Source: Bacteroidota bacterium (lineage in GTDB: Bacteria; Bacteroidota; Rhodothermia; Balneolales; HLUCCA01). Taken from it: 64,000 bases of DNA. The notes under the pieces are model-generated. The model saw nothing but the letters and a program-made list of their open reading frames with translations. It did not search any database and had not been told where the DNA came from. Of this stretch, positions 1 through 6,870 are shown piece after piece; the first letter of the stretch is position 1; each line of letters begins with the position of its first letter. Made by a program: the position numbers and the translations under genes. Location of the stretch: positions 1 to 64,000 of the forward strand of contig JAFIEZ010000017.1 in the NCBI GenBank assembly GCA_020832235.1, read 5' to 3'.

Positions 1-11
1 TGATAAGGTGA
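1..11 (+). CDS. 3' end of a third T9SS-sorted secreted paralogue (partial)
   Basis: The first eleven bases read as the final codons L-I-R-stop. The DNA that follows (to about 250) matches, base for base over long stretches, the DNA just after the two complete secreted paralogues at 2526-3602 and 4759-5868, which also end in L-T-L-I-R. The window therefore opens at the very end of another member of the same family. Nothing can be said of its body. Confidence 0.7.
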
Positions 12-250
12 CGCAAACCTGAAAAAACCAGGAAACTTACCCTGATCAAGTGAGGTGAACTTGGATATACCCACAAACCTACCCTGATAAGGTCACGCTT
101 ACTTCTCAAACCGAACCATCCTCTCTGGCACACTATTGAACATGTGCTACCCAAACTCCATTTGAAATAACCTCCGCAAACATGGTATGCCTTCAAGCAA
201 ATCGACTACTCAGCTAGCGTTGAACGATATGGAGCATAATATTTAGTTAT
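1..250 (+). repeat. Downstream conserved element, copy 1
   Basis: About 250 bp of non-coding DNA repeated after each member of the secreted family (other copies about 3582-3800 and 5848-6060). It begins with tandem copies of the gene's own last codons: the terminal codons at 1-14, a degenerate copy at about 33-56, and a third at 75-98. A run shared by all copies follows (around 110-240: a 'cgaaccatc' block, then 'ctccatttgaaataacct', then 'catggt'). A toxin-antitoxin-like pair begins about 90 bp after it ends, as after the other two copies. Confidence 0.8.
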
Positions 251-1044: not shown

Positions 1045-1155
1045 CGCTAACAACGGTTTCTACTTCGTGGCTTTCAGCTCGTGCTGACAGGTGCTTGTTT
1101 CGATACTTTAGCAGAGTTGGCATCCCCTGCAGTACAAACCGAAAGCCGTTATGCG
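1045..1155 (+). repeat. attC-like recombination site 1
   Basis: An imperfect inverted repeat of about 110 bp with integron attC architecture. The left end has a GCTAAC core (1046-1051) followed by AACGGTTTC. The right end reads GAAAGCCGTT and then GTTATGC (1148-1154). AACGG-TTTC pairs with GAAAGCCGTT except for one unpaired extra base, as in the extrahelical bases of attC sites. An inner arm CGGTTTCTACT also pairs with AGTACAAACCG. It follows the DUF433/DUF5615 pair at the distance expected of a cassette. No integrase gene is in the window, so the call rests on structure alone. Confidence 0.5.
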
Positions 1156-1178
1156 ACACGATTCGAGACCACTAATAC

Positions 1179-1556
1179 TTACTCATCCGGCAATTCAGAT
1201 AATTTAATTCGAGTATAGGCACCTGACTTTTTATCCTCTGGGTGTGGTTCAATCCCTAAAATTGTAATTTCCATACGGTTTGGACCATATGCCCAGTATA
1301 AACGACGTGCAGTTTTTCCTTGATCCAAATACGATTGCCATATTTTCATGTCATATTTCTTGGACAGTGGCTTAATTTCATGGGTTTTCAAACCGGGGTG
1401 TTTGGGATTTGCACTTAAATTCTGGATGGCCTTACCAAAACGGGTAAACAACTCCAATTCATCAGAGTTTAATGCATCAGACCTTTTCCTTTCCAGCAAA
1501 TCTTGCCAAAACGCTTCCATTTCCGGAATACCCATTCGAATAGTATAGGTAGGCAT
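1179..1556 (-). CDS. RelE/ParE-like toxin
   Basis: A 125-residue basic protein whose C-terminal half resembles the RelE superfamily: a strand rich in basic and aromatic residues (T-A-R-R-L-Y-W-A-Y-G) followed by I-T-I-L-G-I-E-P-H-P-E-D-K. The N-terminal half is helical and longer than in minimal RelE proteins, closer to larger HigB/ParE-like relatives. It lies directly downstream of an 85-residue acidic-tailed partner: that gene's stop codon abuts this gene's ATG. The pair runs antisense to its neighbours and sits between two attC-like sites, a common arrangement for toxin-antitoxin cassettes that carry their own promoter. The family call is by resemblance, not a firm match. Confidence 0.6.
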   Translation of the reverse strand: MPTYTIRMGIPEMEAFWQDLLERKRSDALNSDELELFTRFGKAIQNLSANPKHPGLKTHEIKPLSKKYDMKIWQSYLDQGKTARRLYWAYGPNRMEITILGIEPHPEDKKSGAYTRIKLSELPDE

Positions 1557-1814
1557 TTAGTCCAGCAATTTGTCTAATTCATCCAGATCCACAGCTTTGG
1601 ACGCTTTACCCTTTTTCAAGTTAGCAATAGATTGGTCAATCGTGGCTAACGTTTTTGCCGAGATTTCGTCCGGGTGTACTAAAACTCGCGGACTTAATTC
1701 GATGGTTCCATCATCTTTCTCGCGTACACGATAAAACATCGTTTTAGCTCCACGAAGGGTAATTCGCTTTTTGGCATCTAAGCGAGCGTCATATTCTTTG
1801 ATTGATTGTGCCAT
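1557..1814 (-). CDS. Putative antitoxin of the RelE-like pair
   Basis: An 85-residue protein. Its N-terminal part (A-Q-S-I-K-E-Y-D-A-R-L-D-A-K-K-R-I-T-L) looks like a short DNA-binding strand region of an AbrB/MazE or ribbon-helix-helix type. The C-terminal part is acidic (V-D-L-D-E-L-D-K-L-L-D), as expected for an antitoxin tail that wraps a toxin. It is the first gene of a two-gene minus-strand operon with the RelE-like gene at 1179-1556. I do not recognise a named family. The upstream DNA (1815-1920) contains 'atagccataagtgggatatcccacaatgaatatggctat', which holds the palindrome TGGGATATCCCA, a plausible operator. Confidence 0.6.
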   Translation of the reverse strand: MAQSIKEYDARLDAKKRITLRGAKTMFYRVREKDDGTIELSPRVLVHPDEISAKTLATIDQSIANLKKGKASKAVDLDELDKLLD

Positions 1815-1867
1815 GATAAATTGCTTGGAATGTAGTGTTTACAGTTGCAATATAGCCATAAGTGGGA

Positions 1868-1879
1868 TATCCCACAATG
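1868..1879. promoter_or_regulatory. Palindrome upstream of the RelE-like operon
   Basis: A perfect 12-bp palindrome TGGGATATCCCA lies about 55-65 bp upstream of the antitoxin start, flanked by an outer inverted pair (ATAGCCAT ... ATGGCTAT). Autoregulated toxin-antitoxin operons commonly have such operators; that role is inferred. Confidence 0.4.
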
Positions 1880-1936
1880 AATATGGCTATACTATCGTGA
1901 ATATATTATAGCCAGTAAAGCAAACATTTAAGTGTG

Positions 1937-2028
1937 GCATAACAAGGCGCTCCATGCTGACCGGTGGAAGTTTGGATGGTTTTGGTTAGATTCGAATACC
2001 CGGTAGCATAAACGCTGAGCCGTTACAG
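1937..2028 (+). repeat. attC-like recombination site 2
   Basis: The left end GCATAACAAGGCGCTCC (from 1937) is very close to the 5' side of many chromosomal-integron attC sites. Its first seven bases are the exact reverse complement of the right core GTTATGC of the site at 1148-1154. The right half reads GGTAGCAT ... CGCTGAGCCGTTAC (to 2026). ATGCTGACCGG on the left pairs with CCGGTAGCAT on the right with one unpaired base. Together with site 1 it brackets an 0.8 kb cassette holding the antisense toxin-antitoxin pair. Confidence 0.55.
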
Positions 2029-2085
2029 TGCAGTAGGTTACCCTAAAAACGAACAGAGGTAATTAATCCGTTCTTTTACACTCAT

Positions 2086-2163
2086 TTTTATAACGAGAGT
2101 AATTTTGCTCAATGTTTACCCATATCATTAAAACGAAGGTAAAGATTACACTCGTTATTAAAA
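2086..2163. repeat. Long inverted repeat in intergenic region
   Basis: Arms at 2086-2103 and 2145-2163 (TAACGAGAGTAAT against ATTACACTCGTTA) pair with two differences over about 18 bp, around a 41-base loop. A second, perfect hairpin (CCGTTAG-ttc-CTAACGG) lies at 2202-2218 with no following T-run. The stretch 1815-2525 has no convincing gene; it holds the palindrome, the attC-like site, these hairpins and the promoter region of the next gene. Function unknown. Confidence 0.6.
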
Positions 2164-2410
2164 CCATGTTTAGAGCAGATACCCCTTACAACGAACTCCC
2201 CCCGTTAGTTCCTAACGGAGATCTTGAAACGCAGCTTGTCCGTAGATTGTAACGGATGTGCCCCCCTCACAATAGCGCAATTGGCACTAACTATAGCCAT
2301 TACATTACATTCCTTTAGATGATACACAGCGTCGTTTTTGGTCGAAGTGTATAGAAATTTTGGAATACGTATCGACATCATTGTGATTCCGGCCAATTCA
2401 GATTAGATTC

Positions 2411-2525
2411 ACCCATCAAATCATGTATATTTTTGTTTAGTGCAATTTTAACTTGTCGGAAACCTTTTTTTTTATAGACTTATAGAACGACGGATTTCTC
2501 CCCCTTTTACTAATCAGCGCACCTC
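2411..2525 (+). repeat. Upstream conserved element, copy A
   Basis: About 115 bp before the ATG of the secreted paralogue, nearly identical to 4640-4758 before the second paralogue and, in its first half, to 6790-6870 before the subtilase gene. Shared landmarks are 'aaatcat', 'gtgcaatt', 'aacttgtcgg' and a T-run followed by 'atagactta'. Confidence 0.8.
2453..2482 (+). promoter_or_regulatory. Bacteroidota-type -33/-7 promoter, copy A
   Basis: TTG (2453-2455), 19 bases, then TAGACTTA (2475-2482), close to the Bacteroidota consensus TTG-N19-TAnnTTTG. The same two boxes with the same 19-base spacing occur at 4682-4711 before the paralogous gene, despite changes nearby. Transcription would start some 35-40 bp before the ATG at 2526. 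Confidence 0.5.
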
Positions 2526-3602
2526 ATGACTTCCCTGAAACGATCTTCCCTATTACTGGCAATAATTGTTGCCTTCATATGCATCCATAACAGCAACGTT
2601 TACGCCCAGTATTACGACCTATCTGTTGGTACCGAACGTTTTTTTGATGAAGATTCCTTTTCTGATGCCAGAATAAGAATTGATATAGGCGAAAATAACA
2701 CACGTGCCATCGAGAGGGTTATTGATGAAGTGGTAGTGGACGGAGTTACATGGGCTATCGTTGAGTGGACGAAGTGGACTCAAATTGTGCAACCATCCGG
2801 TACACACCTCATAATCAGTTCAGATACACTTTATTATCGAATGGATGGTTCAATTTTATACGAATACTCAAACGGTGCTGAAATACCGGTTTTCGATTTC
2901 CACATCGAACTCGGCGATTCCTTATTTACTCGTTTTCAGCCTTTTATGTCTGACAACCTGCTTCAACAGTTTCAGGAATTAGGGGATCGTGGAGGCGTAC
3001 TACTAGCTGACACCACCATTACGTTTCCCGGAGGGAGTCAGCTCCGTATGTTATGGGGAGATGGCACAGCGATAGATTGGTATCAAATACCGTCTGCGAA
3101 GGTATTTGTTGAAGAAATTTTGATCGAAAGGGAGGGATGGTTATACCCATACAATTCAGACAAGTCCGATGTGTATAATCCTTTTATGGCTTTTTTTCAT
3201 GTTGAAGATTTTGGCAGTCTTTACTCGGTATTCAATCATCGAGAAATGTTTATGTCAGGATTTAAATCACTGGATGGAAGAGCATTTGGTCGTTCTTATG
3301 AGGTTCCCACTTCTCTGAATGAAGTAAATCAGATTCCGGTAGCCCATATTTTGCATCAAAACTACCCCAATCCGTTTAATCCAACTACGCAGATTCGGTT
3401 CTCCTTACCGATGGAATCAGCGGTGGAGCTGGATGTGTACACAATCACTGGTCAGCATGTAGCTAACTTGGTGAGTGAAGTCCGCCCGGCCGGAACCCAT
3501 CAGGTTACCTTCGATGCTTCTGACCTGGCCTCGGGCGTGTACATGTACCGCATCCGCGCGGGGAATTACATCGAGACCCGCAAACTGACCTTGATTAGGT
3601 GA
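2526..3602 (+). CDS. T9SS-sorted secreted protein, paralogue A
   Basis: 358 residues. It has a signal peptide (K-R near the start, hydrophobic run, cleavage probably after V-Y-A at about residue 27), then a body of roughly 245 residues predicted to be mostly beta strand and matching no family I recognise. The C-terminal type IX secretion sorting domain of about 80 residues starts at Q-N-Y-P-N-P-F-N-P and ends K-L-T-L-I-R. The mature protein should be exported by T9SS and anchored or released at the surface. The N-terminal about 40 residues and the sorting domain are nearly identical to paralogue B (4759-5868), but the body between them is strongly diverged. The gene lies between conserved upstream and downstream DNA elements. 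Confidence 0.85.
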   Translation: MTSLKRSSLLLAIIVAFICIHNSNVYAQYYDLSVGTERFFDEDSFSDARIRIDIGENNTRAIERVIDEVVVDGVTWAIVEWTKWTQIVQPSGTHLIISSDTLYYRMDGSILYEYSNGAEIPVFDFHIELGDSLFTRFQPFMSDNLLQQFQELGDRGGVLLADTTITFPGGSQLRMLWGDGTAIDWYQIPSAKVFVEEILIEREGWLYPYNSDKSDVYNPFMAFFHVEDFGSLYSVFNHREMFMSGFKSLDGRAFGRSYEVPTSLNEVNQIPVAHILHQNYPNPFNPTTQIRFSLPMESAVELDVYTITGQHVANLVSEVRPAGTHQVTFDASDLASGVYMYRIRAGNYIETRKLTLIR

Positions 3603-3800
3603 TGCAATCTTGGATAAACCAATAAACTGACCTTGATAAGGTGATGCTCATTTCTGAAACCGAACCATCTATTCCGGCACATTATTGATTGTGTGTTACC
3701 GTAACTCCATTTGAAATAACCTCCACAAACATGGTGTACCTTCAAATAAATCGCCTACCAAGCTAGAGTCAAACGATTTGGAGCATAACTTTTAGTTAAT
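3582..3800 (+). repeat. Downstream conserved element, copy 2
   Basis: Second copy of the element found at 1-250 and 5848-6060. It includes two 24-bp copies of the gene tail: 3582-3605, spanning the real stop codon, and 3624-3647, 22-23 of 24 bases the same. A shared non-coding stretch follows to about 3800. The MNT/HEPN pair starts 80 bp further on. Confidence 0.85.
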
Positions 3801-3879
3801 GGCACTTTACACTTGTACCAGCCTGAAAGTTAAATTCCCGTTTCTTTTGCTATATTGATTGTAATGAAAAATTAGAATC

Positions 3880-4161
3880 ATGAATGACCTCGGACACATA
3901 AAAAAGAAAATCAGGCCAATCCTCAAAAAGTACGGCATCAAAAAAGCCGGTATCTTCGGCTCATCTGCACGAGGTGAGGCTGTAGTGAATGATTTGGACC
4001 TGCTTGTCAAAATCGATAAAAAAATCAGCCTTTTGGAGTTTATTGGTATTCAGCAGGAATTAGAGGATAAATTGGGAATGAAGGTGGATCTTGTTGAATA
4101 TGACGCAATCAAGCCTGCTTTAAAGGATGATATCCTGAGGGAAGAAGAACCTGTGATATGA
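3880..4161 (+). CDS. mntA: MNT-domain nucleotidyltransferase, antitoxin of MNT/HEPN pair
   Basis: A 93-residue minimal nucleotidyltransferase. The fold's signature is present: G-S-S-A-R-G-E-A (about residues 27-34), then D-L-D-L-L-V, the two metal-binding aspartates, and later K-V-D-L-V-E-Y. The stretch between G-S and D-x-D is one residue shorter than the usual G-S-x10-D-x-D. MntA-type proteins neutralise their HEPN partner by adding AMP to it; that is family knowledge, not shown here. Its stop overlaps the ATG of the HEPN gene by four bases. Confidence 0.85.
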   Translation: MNDLGHIKKKIRPILKKYGIKKAGIFGSSARGEAVVNDLDLLVKIDKKISLLEFIGIQQELEDKLGMKVDLVEYDAIKPALKDDILREEEPVI

Positions 4162-4502
4162 GCAAGAGAAAACCTGACGTCTATCTGCAGGATATTTTAG
4201 AGAGTATTGATCACATCCAAAGGTTTCTTGATGGCGTGTCTGAAGAGAATTTTTATGAAAATGTAGAGAAGCAAGATGCCGTTCTGCGCAGGCTTGAAAT
4301 TATCGGGGAAGCCGTTAAACATCTGCCTGAAGAAATTCGCGAGAAACACCCCGATATTCCCTGGCGACAGATTGCTGGCATGAGAGATATCATTATTCAT
4401 GAATATTTTGGCGTGACTTTAGGCATGATTTGGGTAGTTGCCACAGAAGATATTCATGATCTTAAAGCAAAAGTTGAAGAGATCATCGAATCAAACCAAT
4501 AA
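4158..4502 (+). CDS. hepT: HEPN (DUF86/HepT) ribonuclease toxin
   Basis: A 114-residue all-alpha HepT protein. The catalytic R-x4-H motif is intact as R-D-I-I-I-H-E-Y near residues 77-84, preceded by the family sequences R-L-E-I-I-G-E-A and I-P-W-R-Q-I-A-G-M. HEPN proteins of this kind are tRNA/mRNA-cleaving toxins controlled by an adjacent MNT protein, which here overlaps it upstream. The pair sits between the downstream element of one secreted paralogue and the upstream element of the next. Confidence 0.88.
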   Translation: MSKRKPDVYLQDILESIDHIQRFLDGVSEENFYENVEKQDAVLRRLEIIGEAVKHLPEEIREKHPDIPWRQIAGMRDIIIHEYFGVTLGMIWVVATEDIHDLKAKVEEIIESNQ

Positions 4503-4596
4503 TCGGATCGGCCATTAACCAGTGTTTCCTGCTGATAGGTATATGTTTCTTGCCGAACATTCATGATGATTGTCCGGCCGCAGAAACACCAAACCC

Positions 4597-4758
4597 TTAC
4601 ACGGTCAGCCAACGCTCCAGATAGGTATTATCTTTGAGATACCACCGAATCATATATATTGTTGTTAAGTGCAATTCTAACTTGTCGGAAATCTTTTTTT
4701 TTATAGACTTATAAAACGACAGATTTCGCCCGCCCCCTTTTACTAATCATCGCACCTC
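4597..4758 (+). repeat. Upstream conserved element, copy B
   Basis: Matches 2411-2525 and 6752-6870. It starts at 'ttacacggtcagccaacg' (also present at 6753) and runs to the ATG of paralogue B. Just before it, GTGTTTCCTGC (4521-4531) pairs with GCAGAAACAC (4581-4590) with one unpaired base. Confidence 0.8.
4682..4711 (+). promoter_or_regulatory. Bacteroidota-type -33/-7 promoter, copy B
   Basis: TTG (4682-4684), 19 bases, TAGACTTA (4704-4711): same boxes and spacing as before paralogue A. Confidence 0.5.
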
Positions 4759-5868
4759 ATGACTTCACTGAAACGAACCTCCCTGCTACTGGCAATGATT
4801 GTTGCCTTCACAAGCATCCATAACAGCAATTTATACGCCCAGTATTACGACCTCAGCGTGGGTACCGAACGGCATTTTTATAACTGTTACGGAGTTACAT
4901 CAAATTGTGATCTGCCACTACCGGGAGAACAAACGGTCGGTTTAGAGCGGGTTACCGACGAAATCACCGTAGATGGAAAGCAATGGGCGGTAGTAACATT
5001 CATGTTATGGCCAGATTTTTTTGAAAAAAAACCATCCTATTTTGTAGAAGAAAATGCATCAATCACAGAGAATCTATACCGAATGGAGGGATCTGTACTG
5101 ATTGAGTTTGTAGATGGAAATGAAGTCCCCATTTTTGACTTTGAAATCGATCCCAATCAGCCACTTTCCGAGCATTTCGCACCATTCCCTCGCGCGAATC
5201 CCTTTGATCCAACTCCTTATAATGCCGAGAACCTTGGGAGGGATTTCGAGCTGTCGTCGCAGGTATTATTAGACACCACAATCGCTTTCCCTGATATGTC
5301 ACAGCGCCGGATTATCTGGGCCGATAATCCACTGGAACCTGGTTTTGACGTCCCGGAGCATCTGATTGGGACGGTTTTTGTGAACGAAATTCTTTTTGAG
5401 GACATGGGGACGCTGAAAATCAGACAAACCTCGAATTACACGCCCTATCAACCCTATTTTTACGTTCAGGATACAGGTGTGATGTTTACGCCTATCAACC
5501 ATCGGGGCTACATCATGGTAGGCTACACATCTTCTGATGGTAAATCGATTGGCTGGCAAGTACCAGTGCCAAGTTCTATTGATTTTGGTGGGTCTGAACA
5601 TCCAGATAAAGCTGAGTTGCATCAAAACTACCCCAATCCGTTTAATCCAACTACGCAGATTCGCTTTTCCTTACCGATGGAATCAGCGGTGGAGCTGGAT
5701 GTGTACACAGTCACAGGTCGGCATGTAGCCAACTTGGTGAACGAAGTCCGCCCGGCCGGAACCCATCAGGTTACCTTCGATGCTTCTGACCTGGCCTCGG
5801 GCGTGTATATGTATCGCATCCGCGCGGGGAATTTCATCGAGAACCGCAAACTGACCCTGATAAGGTGA
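4759..5868 (+). CDS. T9SS-sorted secreted protein, paralogue B
   Basis: 369 residues. Signal peptide to about residue 27 (ending L-Y-A), an unrecognised body, and a C-terminal type IX sorting domain (Q-N-Y-P-N-P-F-N-P to K-L-T-L-I-R). Compared with paralogue A, the first 38 residues and last 85 differ at only a few positions, while the middle aligns poorly and differs in length. A few anchors persist (V-T-D-E-x-x-V-D-G, L-L-D-T-T-I-x-F, and an F-N/I-N-H-R element before the sorting domain). The DNA of the 3' block (5617 onward) is almost the same as 3351 onward in paralogue A, and this similarity continues past the stop codon. That pattern suggests recombination or gene conversion between copies. 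Confidence 0.85.
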   Translation: MTSLKRTSLLLAMIVAFTSIHNSNLYAQYYDLSVGTERHFYNCYGVTSNCDLPLPGEQTVGLERVTDEITVDGKQWAVVTFMLWPDFFEKKPSYFVEENASITENLYRMEGSVLIEFVDGNEVPIFDFEIDPNQPLSEHFAPFPRANPFDPTPYNAENLGRDFELSSQVLLDTTIAFPDMSQRRIIWADNPLEPGFDVPEHLIGTVFVNEILFEDMGTLKIRQTSNYTPYQPYFYVQDTGVMFTPINHRGYIMVGYTSSDGKSIGWQVPVPSSIDFGGSEHPDKAELHQNYPNPFNPTTQIRFSLPMESAVELDVYTVTGRHVANLVNEVRPAGTHQVTFDASDLASGVYMYRIRAGNFIENRKLTLIR

Positions 5869-6060
5869 CGCAAACTTGGGTAAATCCACAAACTGATCTT
5901 GATAAGGTCACGCTTACTTCTCAAACCGAACCATCCACTCTGGCACACTATTGAACTTTTCTTACCCAAACTCCATTTGAAATAACCTTCGAAAACATGG
6001 TATGCTTTCAAATAAATCGACTAATCAGGTTGAGTCAACCGATTTGGAACATCTCATTTA
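5848..6060 (+). repeat. Downstream conserved element, copy 3
   Basis: Third copy. It contains a 24-bp gene-tail unit at 5848-5871 spanning the stop codon and a second at 5890-5913, then the shared non-coding run. Similarity fades at about 6060, and the RelB/YafQ pair starts at 6153. Confidence 0.85.
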
Positions 6061-6152: not shown

Positions 6153-6416
6153 ATGTCGAACAAAACTACAACGGTACGGGCAAGACTCGAGCCGGACTTG
6201 AAAGAAGAAACCGAATTAATTTTCGAACAACTTGGGTTGAGTACAACCGAAGCAATTCGCATCTTTTTTAAGCAGGTTCAGCTTCAGCAAGGGTTACCTT
6301 TTGACTTAAAACTCCCAAACGAAACCACCAAAAAGGCTATTGCAGAGGCCCAAGCACGAAAGCAATTAAAATCCGTGGATTCTGCACAAGAAGTATTTGA
6401 CGATCTCGACATTTAA
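6153..6416 (+). CDS. RelB/DinJ family antitoxin
   Basis: An 87-residue ribbon-helix-helix antitoxin. The N-terminal strand T-T-V-R-A-R-L-E-P-D-L-K and the following helix (L-S-T-T-E-A-I-R-I-F-F-K-Q-V) are the DinJ/RelB DNA-binding unit, and the common L-P-F-D-L block follows at about residues 52-56. The acidic C-terminus ends V-F-D-D-L-D-I. The last base of its stop is the first base of the YafQ start (TAATG), so translation is likely coupled. An inverted repeat at 6109-6126 is the probable operator. Confidence 0.88.
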   Translation: MSNKTTTVRARLEPDLKEETELIFEQLGLSTTEAIRIFFKQVQLQQGLPFDLKLPNETTKKAIAEAQARKQLKSVDSAQEVFDDLDI

Positions 6417-6685
6417 TGAAAACTATTTCCAGAACAACCCGCTTTGAGAAGGACGTGAAGAAGATGAAAAAGCGGGGGAAGTCGTTTTCAGTTTTTAAGC
6501 AAGTGATTACAAATCTGGCGAATAACGAGATTCTTGAGCCAAAGTTTAAAGATCACAAGTTAGTGGGAAACTATGCCGATACCCGAGAGTCTCACATTGA
6601 GCCGGATTGGCTGCTTATCTACATCAACAACGAAGATGAATTAATGTTGGTCAGGACGGGTACACACGCCGACTTGTTTGGGTAA
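6416..6685 (+). CDS. YafQ family mRNA interferase toxin
   Basis: An 89-residue RelE-superfamily toxin of the YafQ type. It shows the F-E-K-D-V-K-K-M-K-K-R-G start, the D-H-K-L-x-G-N-Y-A-D-T-R-E-S-H-I-E-P-D-W-L-L-I-Y block (about residues 45-69) and the R-T-G-T-H-A-D-L-F end. The histidines and aspartate of the known YafQ active site lie in these blocks. Together with its antitoxin it fills the spacer between a downstream element and an upstream element of the secreted-protein array. Confidence 0.88.
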   Translation: MKTISRTTRFEKDVKKMKKRGKSFSVFKQVITNLANNEILEPKFKDHKLVGNYADTRESHIEPDWLLIYINNEDELMLVRTGTHADLFG

Positions 6686-6751
6686 ATTTAAATCGAGTCA
6701 TTATGGTGTAACACGCGGTTCATGCAGCTTCGCAATGATAATCGCCCCAGA

Positions 6752-6870
6752 ATTACACGGTCAGCCAACGGTCCTGATGGGTGTTTTTCTTTGGGTTACC
6801 ACCAAATCATGCATATTGTTGCTACCTACAAATCCAACTTGTCGCAAATCTTTTTTTTATCTAAGTTAGC
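6752..6870 (+). repeat. Upstream conserved element, copy C, before the subtilase
   Basis: Matches 4597-4700 and 2411-2470 through the 'aacttgtcg' TTG box and the T-run, then diverges. A TTG (6839-6841) is followed after 20 bases by TAAGTTAG (6862-6869), a possible -7 box. The downstream gene is a subtilase, not a member of the paralogous family, so this promoter region appears shared or captured. The rest of the 347-bp gap 6686-7032 shows no gene. Confidence 0.65.

Follow-up and report, generated by a model that had tools for sequence, protein, structure and literature searches.

The question raised by positions 1045-2028 of this DNA is whether two sites enclosing a pair of small genes are attC sites of an integron, as a sequence-only reading had proposed. 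The window, i.e., the whole stretch analysed, is 64 kb long and corresponds to bases 1-64000 of contig C5 of a 3.38-Mb genome in 20 contigs. The contig begins at window base 1, which places the region at a contig end, and the break hides the integrase neighbourhood of the sites. Within the window, no integron integrase gene was present, no tRNA or tmRNA was found, and Rfam returned zero matches, so an attC model specific to the lineage was made. With this model and the comparisons described below, we find it very probable that 1045-2028 holds one cassette of a chromosomal integron, lying between the attC of the preceding cassette and its own attC (Table 1).

Table 1. Coordinates of cassettes, genes and attC sites in the window
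Feature	Position	Strand	Details
attC site 1	1045..1154	+	R'' CGCTAAC, R' GTTATGC; R1 32.6 bits, E 4.7e-5
Gene cassette, 874 bp	1149..2022	+ (array direction; genes on -)	cuts G^TT at 1148/1149 and 2022/2023
125-aa RelE/YoeB-fold toxin-like protein	1179..1556	-	predicted fold
85-aa partner, putative antitoxin	1557..1814	-	directly upstream of toxin gene
Nested palindrome, operator-like	1851..1891	.	10-bp arms TATAGCCATA/TATGGCTATA around TGGGATATCCCA; read from sequence
attC site 2	1937..2028	+	R'' GGCATAAC, R' GTTAC; R1 33.5 bits, E 3.1e-5
Second complete cassette, 801 bp, MNT/HepT pair	3796..4596	+	start GTTAATGGC at 3795
MNT nucleotidyltransferase gene, antitoxin-type	3880..4161	+	Pfam PF18765, PF01909
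HepT-like ribonuclease gene	4158..4502	+	Pfam PF01934, 105.4 bits
attC site 3, decayed	4513..4602	+	R1 29.7 bits, E 2.1e-4; cleavage G -> C (CCCTTACAC)
Probable fourth attC remnant, 5' half kept	6709..6752	+	after RelB/YafQ pair 6153-6685; below R1 threshold

attC sites and cassette edges

In integrons, the integrase IntI binds the folded bottom strands of attC sites and cuts them between G and TT; the piece between two cuts is excised or inserted as a circle. Each cassette extends from the TT that follows the G of one site up to the G of the following site, and closure of the circle requires that the cassette start pair with the cassette's own R''.

The attC model was built from integrons of the same order, where a search with TIGR02249 placed IntI above the cut-off in 30 of 59 genomes, among them this genome, and in none of 14 controls. 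Twenty stretches were taken for the attC search, and a script looking for TAAC...GTTA sites with paired arms left 85 candidates with CGTTA ends, which share a single orientation per locus with one exception in locus L062. The model, R1, aligns 35 dissimilar sites drawn from 76 candidates outside this genus, with a structure drawn by hand that has R and L boxes, with the unpaired bases placed on the 5' side, an arrangement that we take to be the attC architecture. In the alignment, 96.6% of the cells are paired and 10 of the 17 pairs are changed on both sides, giving 73 cells changed on both sides vs. 15.7 in shuffles; when the partner is shifted by 1-3 columns, pairing falls to 30-38%. Nine loci off the arrays (L090 and L102-L109, about 142 kb), searched with default filters, gave 0 matches at E <= 5, and R1 has matches in 47 of 59 relatives. 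One further locus off the arrays, L091, gave a single weak match of 24.7 bits with default filters, which lies away from contig ends at G000:C18:137468-137588 (L091 7469-7589). This match has 65-77-nt stretches of 75-78% identity in common with attC of G001:C17, and it could be another stray site.

With filters off, R1 found exactly three matches at E <= 5 in the entire 64-kb window, all on the + strand. Two of them are the sites that the sequence-only reading had placed at the borders of 1045-2028; the sequences that it described are there, and the outer R1 borders agree with it to the base. Site 1 is the 3' end of the preceding cassette, and site 2 is the own attC of the cassette at 1149-2022. 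In sites 1-3 the R and L boxes pair and the cores are conserved, with moderate scores, site 3 being without the cleavage G. At 30-34 bits the window sites reach about half the score of intact sites; in the sister species G001, eight sites score 51-70 bits and one scores 30.4 bits, the counterpart of site 2 reaching 51.2 bits. Site 1 carries an 18-nt insertion in its L'' arm that leaves six modelled pairs unformed, and the low-scoring attC of the sister species (on G001:C11), 91% identical to site 1 over 104 nt, has the 18-nt insertion too. Site 1 also shares 89% identity with attC of G001:C14 and G025:C210 over 73-75 nt, and its score is raised by a training site from another family (L063) that is 89% identical to it over 75 nt. 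Judged by their sequences, the window sites look partly worn.

The low scores bear on the alternative that the sites are hairpins, arisen by chance or from repeats, and not attC at all. Single-strand DNA folding of the bottom strand, a check that the sequence-only reading had suggested, gave a divided answer: site 3 is stabler than shuffles (z -3.1), and sites 1 and 2 are no stabler than shuffles (z -0.97 and 0.26), so that fold energy fails as a discriminator for these two. This result and scores at about half those of intact sites are what a chance hairpin would give, but the three R1 matches share one orientation with E values of 3e-5 to 2e-4 in the window, homologous cassettes elsewhere are bracketed by attC of 40-65 bits, and both the closure of the cassette and its edges in the sister integron contradict hairpins of this kind, which we regard as highly improbable. 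The reading had also called for an attC covariance model; under R1, sites 1 and 2, at E 3.1e-5 to 4.7e-5, do not score as background, and further sites were found in the genome.

The strongest point of that reading was the reverse complementarity of the two cores, and it is borne out by the closure of the cassette. The cassette start that follows site 1, GTTATGCGACAC, and the R'' side of site 2, GTGTGGCATAAC, are complementary at 7 of the 8 bases beyond GTTA, which is the best closure among the 209 GTTA in the window; in the G001 copy of the cassette, the closure is 8/8. In related arrays, 49 of 56 adjacent site pairs agree at the first three outer bases, vs. 54 of 520 other pairs, and matching stays high up to the seventh base beyond GTTA. 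Site 3 likewise has its best complement among the 209 GTTA in the start at 3795, with 9 bases including GTTA, which closes the second cassette. For site 1, the window holds no cassette start complementary to its R'', and the DUF433/DUF5615 pair (348-925) was therefore dropped as the cassette of site 1. Complementarity between the start and the cassette's own R'' in this order reaches about 11 bases, whereas the attC core is 7 bases and thus shorter. As a distant comparison for this length, a search of genome contigs with IntI gave only two distant loci, in which a relaxed pattern finder saw no recognisable array.

Downstream of site 2, a hairpin-containing stretch at 2053-2194 has a second copy, 85% identical, at G000:C11:115143-115283 and looks like a small mobile repeat.

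The cassette in related genomes and its cargo

The sister species G001 has the same cassette at a length of 873 bp, with 808 identities over 874 columns (65 mismatches and 1 gap). At the left cut, window and G001 are identical at 57 of 60 positions just inside and 13 of 30 just outside. At the right cut, 46 of 60 positions are identical inside; outside, the counts are 9 in the first 10 bases and 11 in the first 30. Homology thus ends at both cuts save for about 10 common bases on the right. The G001 copy lies in an array beside a truncated intI. The cassette adjoining the toxin-antitoxin cassette in that array seems to be interrupted by an IS-like insertion with two genes (L061 ~1740-4260), presumably of the IS21-like family.

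In two further relatives, G005 and G011, the cassettes that carry the gene pair measure 894 and 890 bp and have closures of 11-12 bases. Nine relatives (L042-L050) match most of the pair; in six of these, attC lies on at least one side within the limited flanks available, and no attC was detected in the limited flanks of the other three (L043, L045 and L048). The genes run opposite to the array direction in the window and in 6/6 of the attC-linked relatives. Across the class, 26 of the 244 genomes contain a match to the toxin gene.

The sequence-only reading had called the cargo an antisense toxin-antitoxin cassette, and the pair does look like a toxin-antitoxin pair with its genes opposite to the array. 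The 125-aa product matched no Pfam, NCBIfam or PADLOC family at usual thresholds. Its AlphaFold model, made with 18 homologs, has a pLDDT of 79.1 and a pTM of 0.73, with low confidence for residues 109-125. The best-ranked Foldseek matches of this model are YoeB and RelE toxins, with a best E value of 2.4e-3 and none below 0.001, and VIA-align, whose high-scoring matches are toxins of the RelE/ParE kind, aligned it to YoeB (7v6w_F) with a Z score of 10.0 over 88 residues at an rmsd of 2.9. On this predicted model, the product would have the RelE/ParE fold of type II toxins. The 85-aa partner has no family match in Pfam or NCBIfam and no likeness to known antitoxins in the searches made, and its structure model is too poor to place; a family outside the fold lists may also fit it. 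The partner gene stands next to the toxin match in most of the related loci read, as an antitoxin gene would. The palindrome at 1851-1891 lies upstream of the pair.

We propose that the cassette encodes a type II toxin-antitoxin-like pair, in which the protein with the predicted RelE/YoeB fold would be the toxin and the product of the gene upstream of it the putative antitoxin. Because the pair runs opposite to the array direction, it must use its own promoter, from which it would be expressed; a sigma-70 scan gave fewer promoter-like sites than shuffles, and we therefore claim no particular promoter. The piece at 1149-2022 would be excised or inserted by IntI, and its most likely role may be that of a self-expressed toxin-antitoxin cassette that travels in cassette arrays and may help to keep them.

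Integrase, further cassettes and the history of the region

The sequence-only reading had taken the region to be integron-derived and had likened it to orphan attC clusters without an integrase. The first part is upheld by the attC sites, the cassette edges and the intI gene that it had proposed to look for; the second is not, as this genome has one IntI above the cut-off, on another contig than the window (C17:2195-3139, TIGR02249 407.6 bits vs. a cut-off of 265), with no stop. It aligns over its full length with the Vibrio cholerae IntI 2a3v (269 bits), and the alignment has the conserved R, HxxR, H and Y positions, which we take to be catalytic. An attC of 63 bits lies at C17:588-677. A faster genome-wide search with R1 at E <= 1, which misses the site at C5:4513, found sites on C17 (1), C8 (2), C11 (1) and C5 (2) as well as the weak match on C18, and the sites on C17, C8, C11 and C5 lie near contig ends. 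Their direction suggests that arrays start on C17 and C8 and that ends enter C11 and C5.

In G001, the truncated intI aligns to positions 1-244 of the profile and no further; sequence homologous to C17 picks up again about 100 bases on, at a part of C17 that lies beyond intI, so that the G001 gene has lost its 3' part. G001:C17 matches the end region of C11, and an 880-bp block of it is 94% identical to C8:912-1791, whereas the flanks of the array on G001:C11 match C8 and C3 of this genome. These array and flank matches indicate that cassette positions have changed between the two species. The contig of the second G001 array has no IntI match. A stretch common to L061 ~7230 and L062 ~1613, TAACTCATTATTGAGTAGC, lies near the start of both G001 arrays and may be an attI-like site. 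We also weighed and set aside a join between C4 and C5: the right end of C4 is 95.8% identical over 189 nt to window positions 1-189, which looks like a repeat copy and not an overlap.

The sequence-only reading had seen two sites and one cassette, both of which hold; it had not seen the third site or the second complete cassette, nor the wear of its two sites, nor that the region may be a disturbed end of an array or a place of strays. Site 3 shares 77% identity over 84 nt with an attC in L080, and the probable fourth remnant matches the attC L062:11125-11214 at 22 of 25 nt in register (E 0.001 among 106 queries). A gene with a T9SS tail and without an attC stands between sites 2 and 3. Two repeat families flank genes with such tails, one at 33-245, 3582-3794 and 5848-6060, with more copies at the right end of C4 and on C8, and the other at 2399-2472, 4628-4701 and 6785-6858. 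Between the repeat units lie toxin-antitoxin pairs of the DUF433/DUF5615, RelE-like, MNT/HepT and RelB/YafQ kinds. The units at 33-245, 3582-3794 and 5848-6060 were set aside as attC, as R1 has no match there. A 33-nt repeat (4597-4629 and 6753-6785) follows both site 3 and the site 4 remnant, starting in each case exactly at the predicted cut base.

How the cassettes came to lie in this setting can be explained in two ways, both of which leave them integron cassettes. The first is that the C5 segment represents the far, worn end of an ordinary chromosomal array split by the draft assembly, with the T9SS-tailed genes brought in by later rearrangement, a case that we judge evenly balanced. The sites of C17, C8, C11 and C5 are close to contig ends, and the usual model places older cassettes at a distance from attI. 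Integrons are known to become broken up in draft assemblies, according to the portion of PMC9024848 that was available. Such an array end fits poorly with the lack of attC in the approximately 1 kb left of site 1 and in the 1.77 kb between sites 2 and 3, and no homologous array end was found beside this flank in G001.

The second explanation, which we hold to be somewhat doubtful, is that the cassettes of C5 are strays that IntI put into secondary attG-like sites among the repeated T9SS-tailed genes, after which their attC decayed. The T9SS-tailed gene without attC between sites 2 and 3 is what scattered insertion would leave, as are the solitary position of the MNT/HepT cassette between repeat units, the start of the repeats at 4597 and 6753 exactly at the predicted cut base, and a collinear region of G001:C7 without an attC match. 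Insertion into attG is described for IntI1 in the available part of PMC12901181, whose reference list has Loot et al. 2024. Against strays, C5 stops at window base 1, so that the array may run on across the contig break; the two array starts (C17 and C8) and two entries (C11 and C5) fit split arrays; and no empty site was found. An extended form of this explanation, that the integrase scattered toxin-antitoxin cassettes from arrays into a row of repeated genes for T9SS-secreted proteins, that attC decay (the insertion in site 1, the base change in site 3 and the half deletion of site 4) fixed them there, and that the pairs alternating with the row may stabilise it, seems to us rather unlikely.

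Whichever route was taken, the reading of 1045-2028 as an integron cassette draws on the covariation of attC, the R1 matches at the borders, the closure, the edges in G001, the G005 and G011 cassettes, the intI gene, the further attC sites and the predicted toxin fold. Against it stand the low window scores, the insertion in site 1, the shuffle-like folding of sites 1 and 2, the lack of a start for the R'' of site 1, the location of IntI on another contig and the three of nine relatives without a detected attC. As the window sites look partly worn, the present mobility of the window cassettes is doubtful.

Relation to known integrons and meaning

The element resembles the sedentary chromosomal integrons of the Vibrio cholerae superintegron type in having an IntI of the TIGR02249 family and attC with R and L boxes and unpaired bases, as well as small cassettes that share one direction within an array. 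A further likeness, toxin-antitoxin cassettes that carry their own promoters, is already known, as the accessible text of PMC11023631 describes. Unlike those integrons, it has few cassettes spread over several contigs, worn attC in the window, a closure of about 11 bases and a gene pair without a named family. The toxin-like protein resembles RelE/YoeB type II toxins in its predicted fold and in the small partner gene directly upstream, but at 125 aa it is longer than YoeB (84-88 aa) and matched no Pfam, NCBIfam or PADLOC family, and its partner, unlike those of known RelE/YoeB systems, resembles no known antitoxin in the searches made.

Bacteroidota are counted among the phyla with integrons in the available portions of PMC8618304 and PMC9668308, and Bacteroidetes go unnamed in the accessible text on the attC models of PMC8352920. 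The accessible part of the IntegronFinder 2.0 paper (PMC9024848) gives Salinibacter ruber M1 as one complete integron beyond earlier cases in Chlorobi and Ignavibacteriae; this member of the Bacteroidetes group is, on taxonomy, probably the nearest reported relative. Among the top-ranked literature matches, we found no published work on integrons of this order; the T9SS sorting tails suggest that the genome lies near Balneolales.

The integron system of this organism looks workable, with an intact intI gene, structured attC and a cassette common to two species. The type of element is itself already known, and a moderate significance comes from how common integrons look in the class. IntI is above the cut-off in 105 of its 244 genomes, which, together with the R1 matches among the relatives, suggests that the lineage may be a large and little-studied reservoir of cassettes. 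The cassette at 1149-2022 adds a new example of a toxin-antitoxin-like cassette that is kept antisense, both in the window and in each of the six relatives with linked attC, and the series of attC from intact to worn offers a place where the loss of mobility can be tested.
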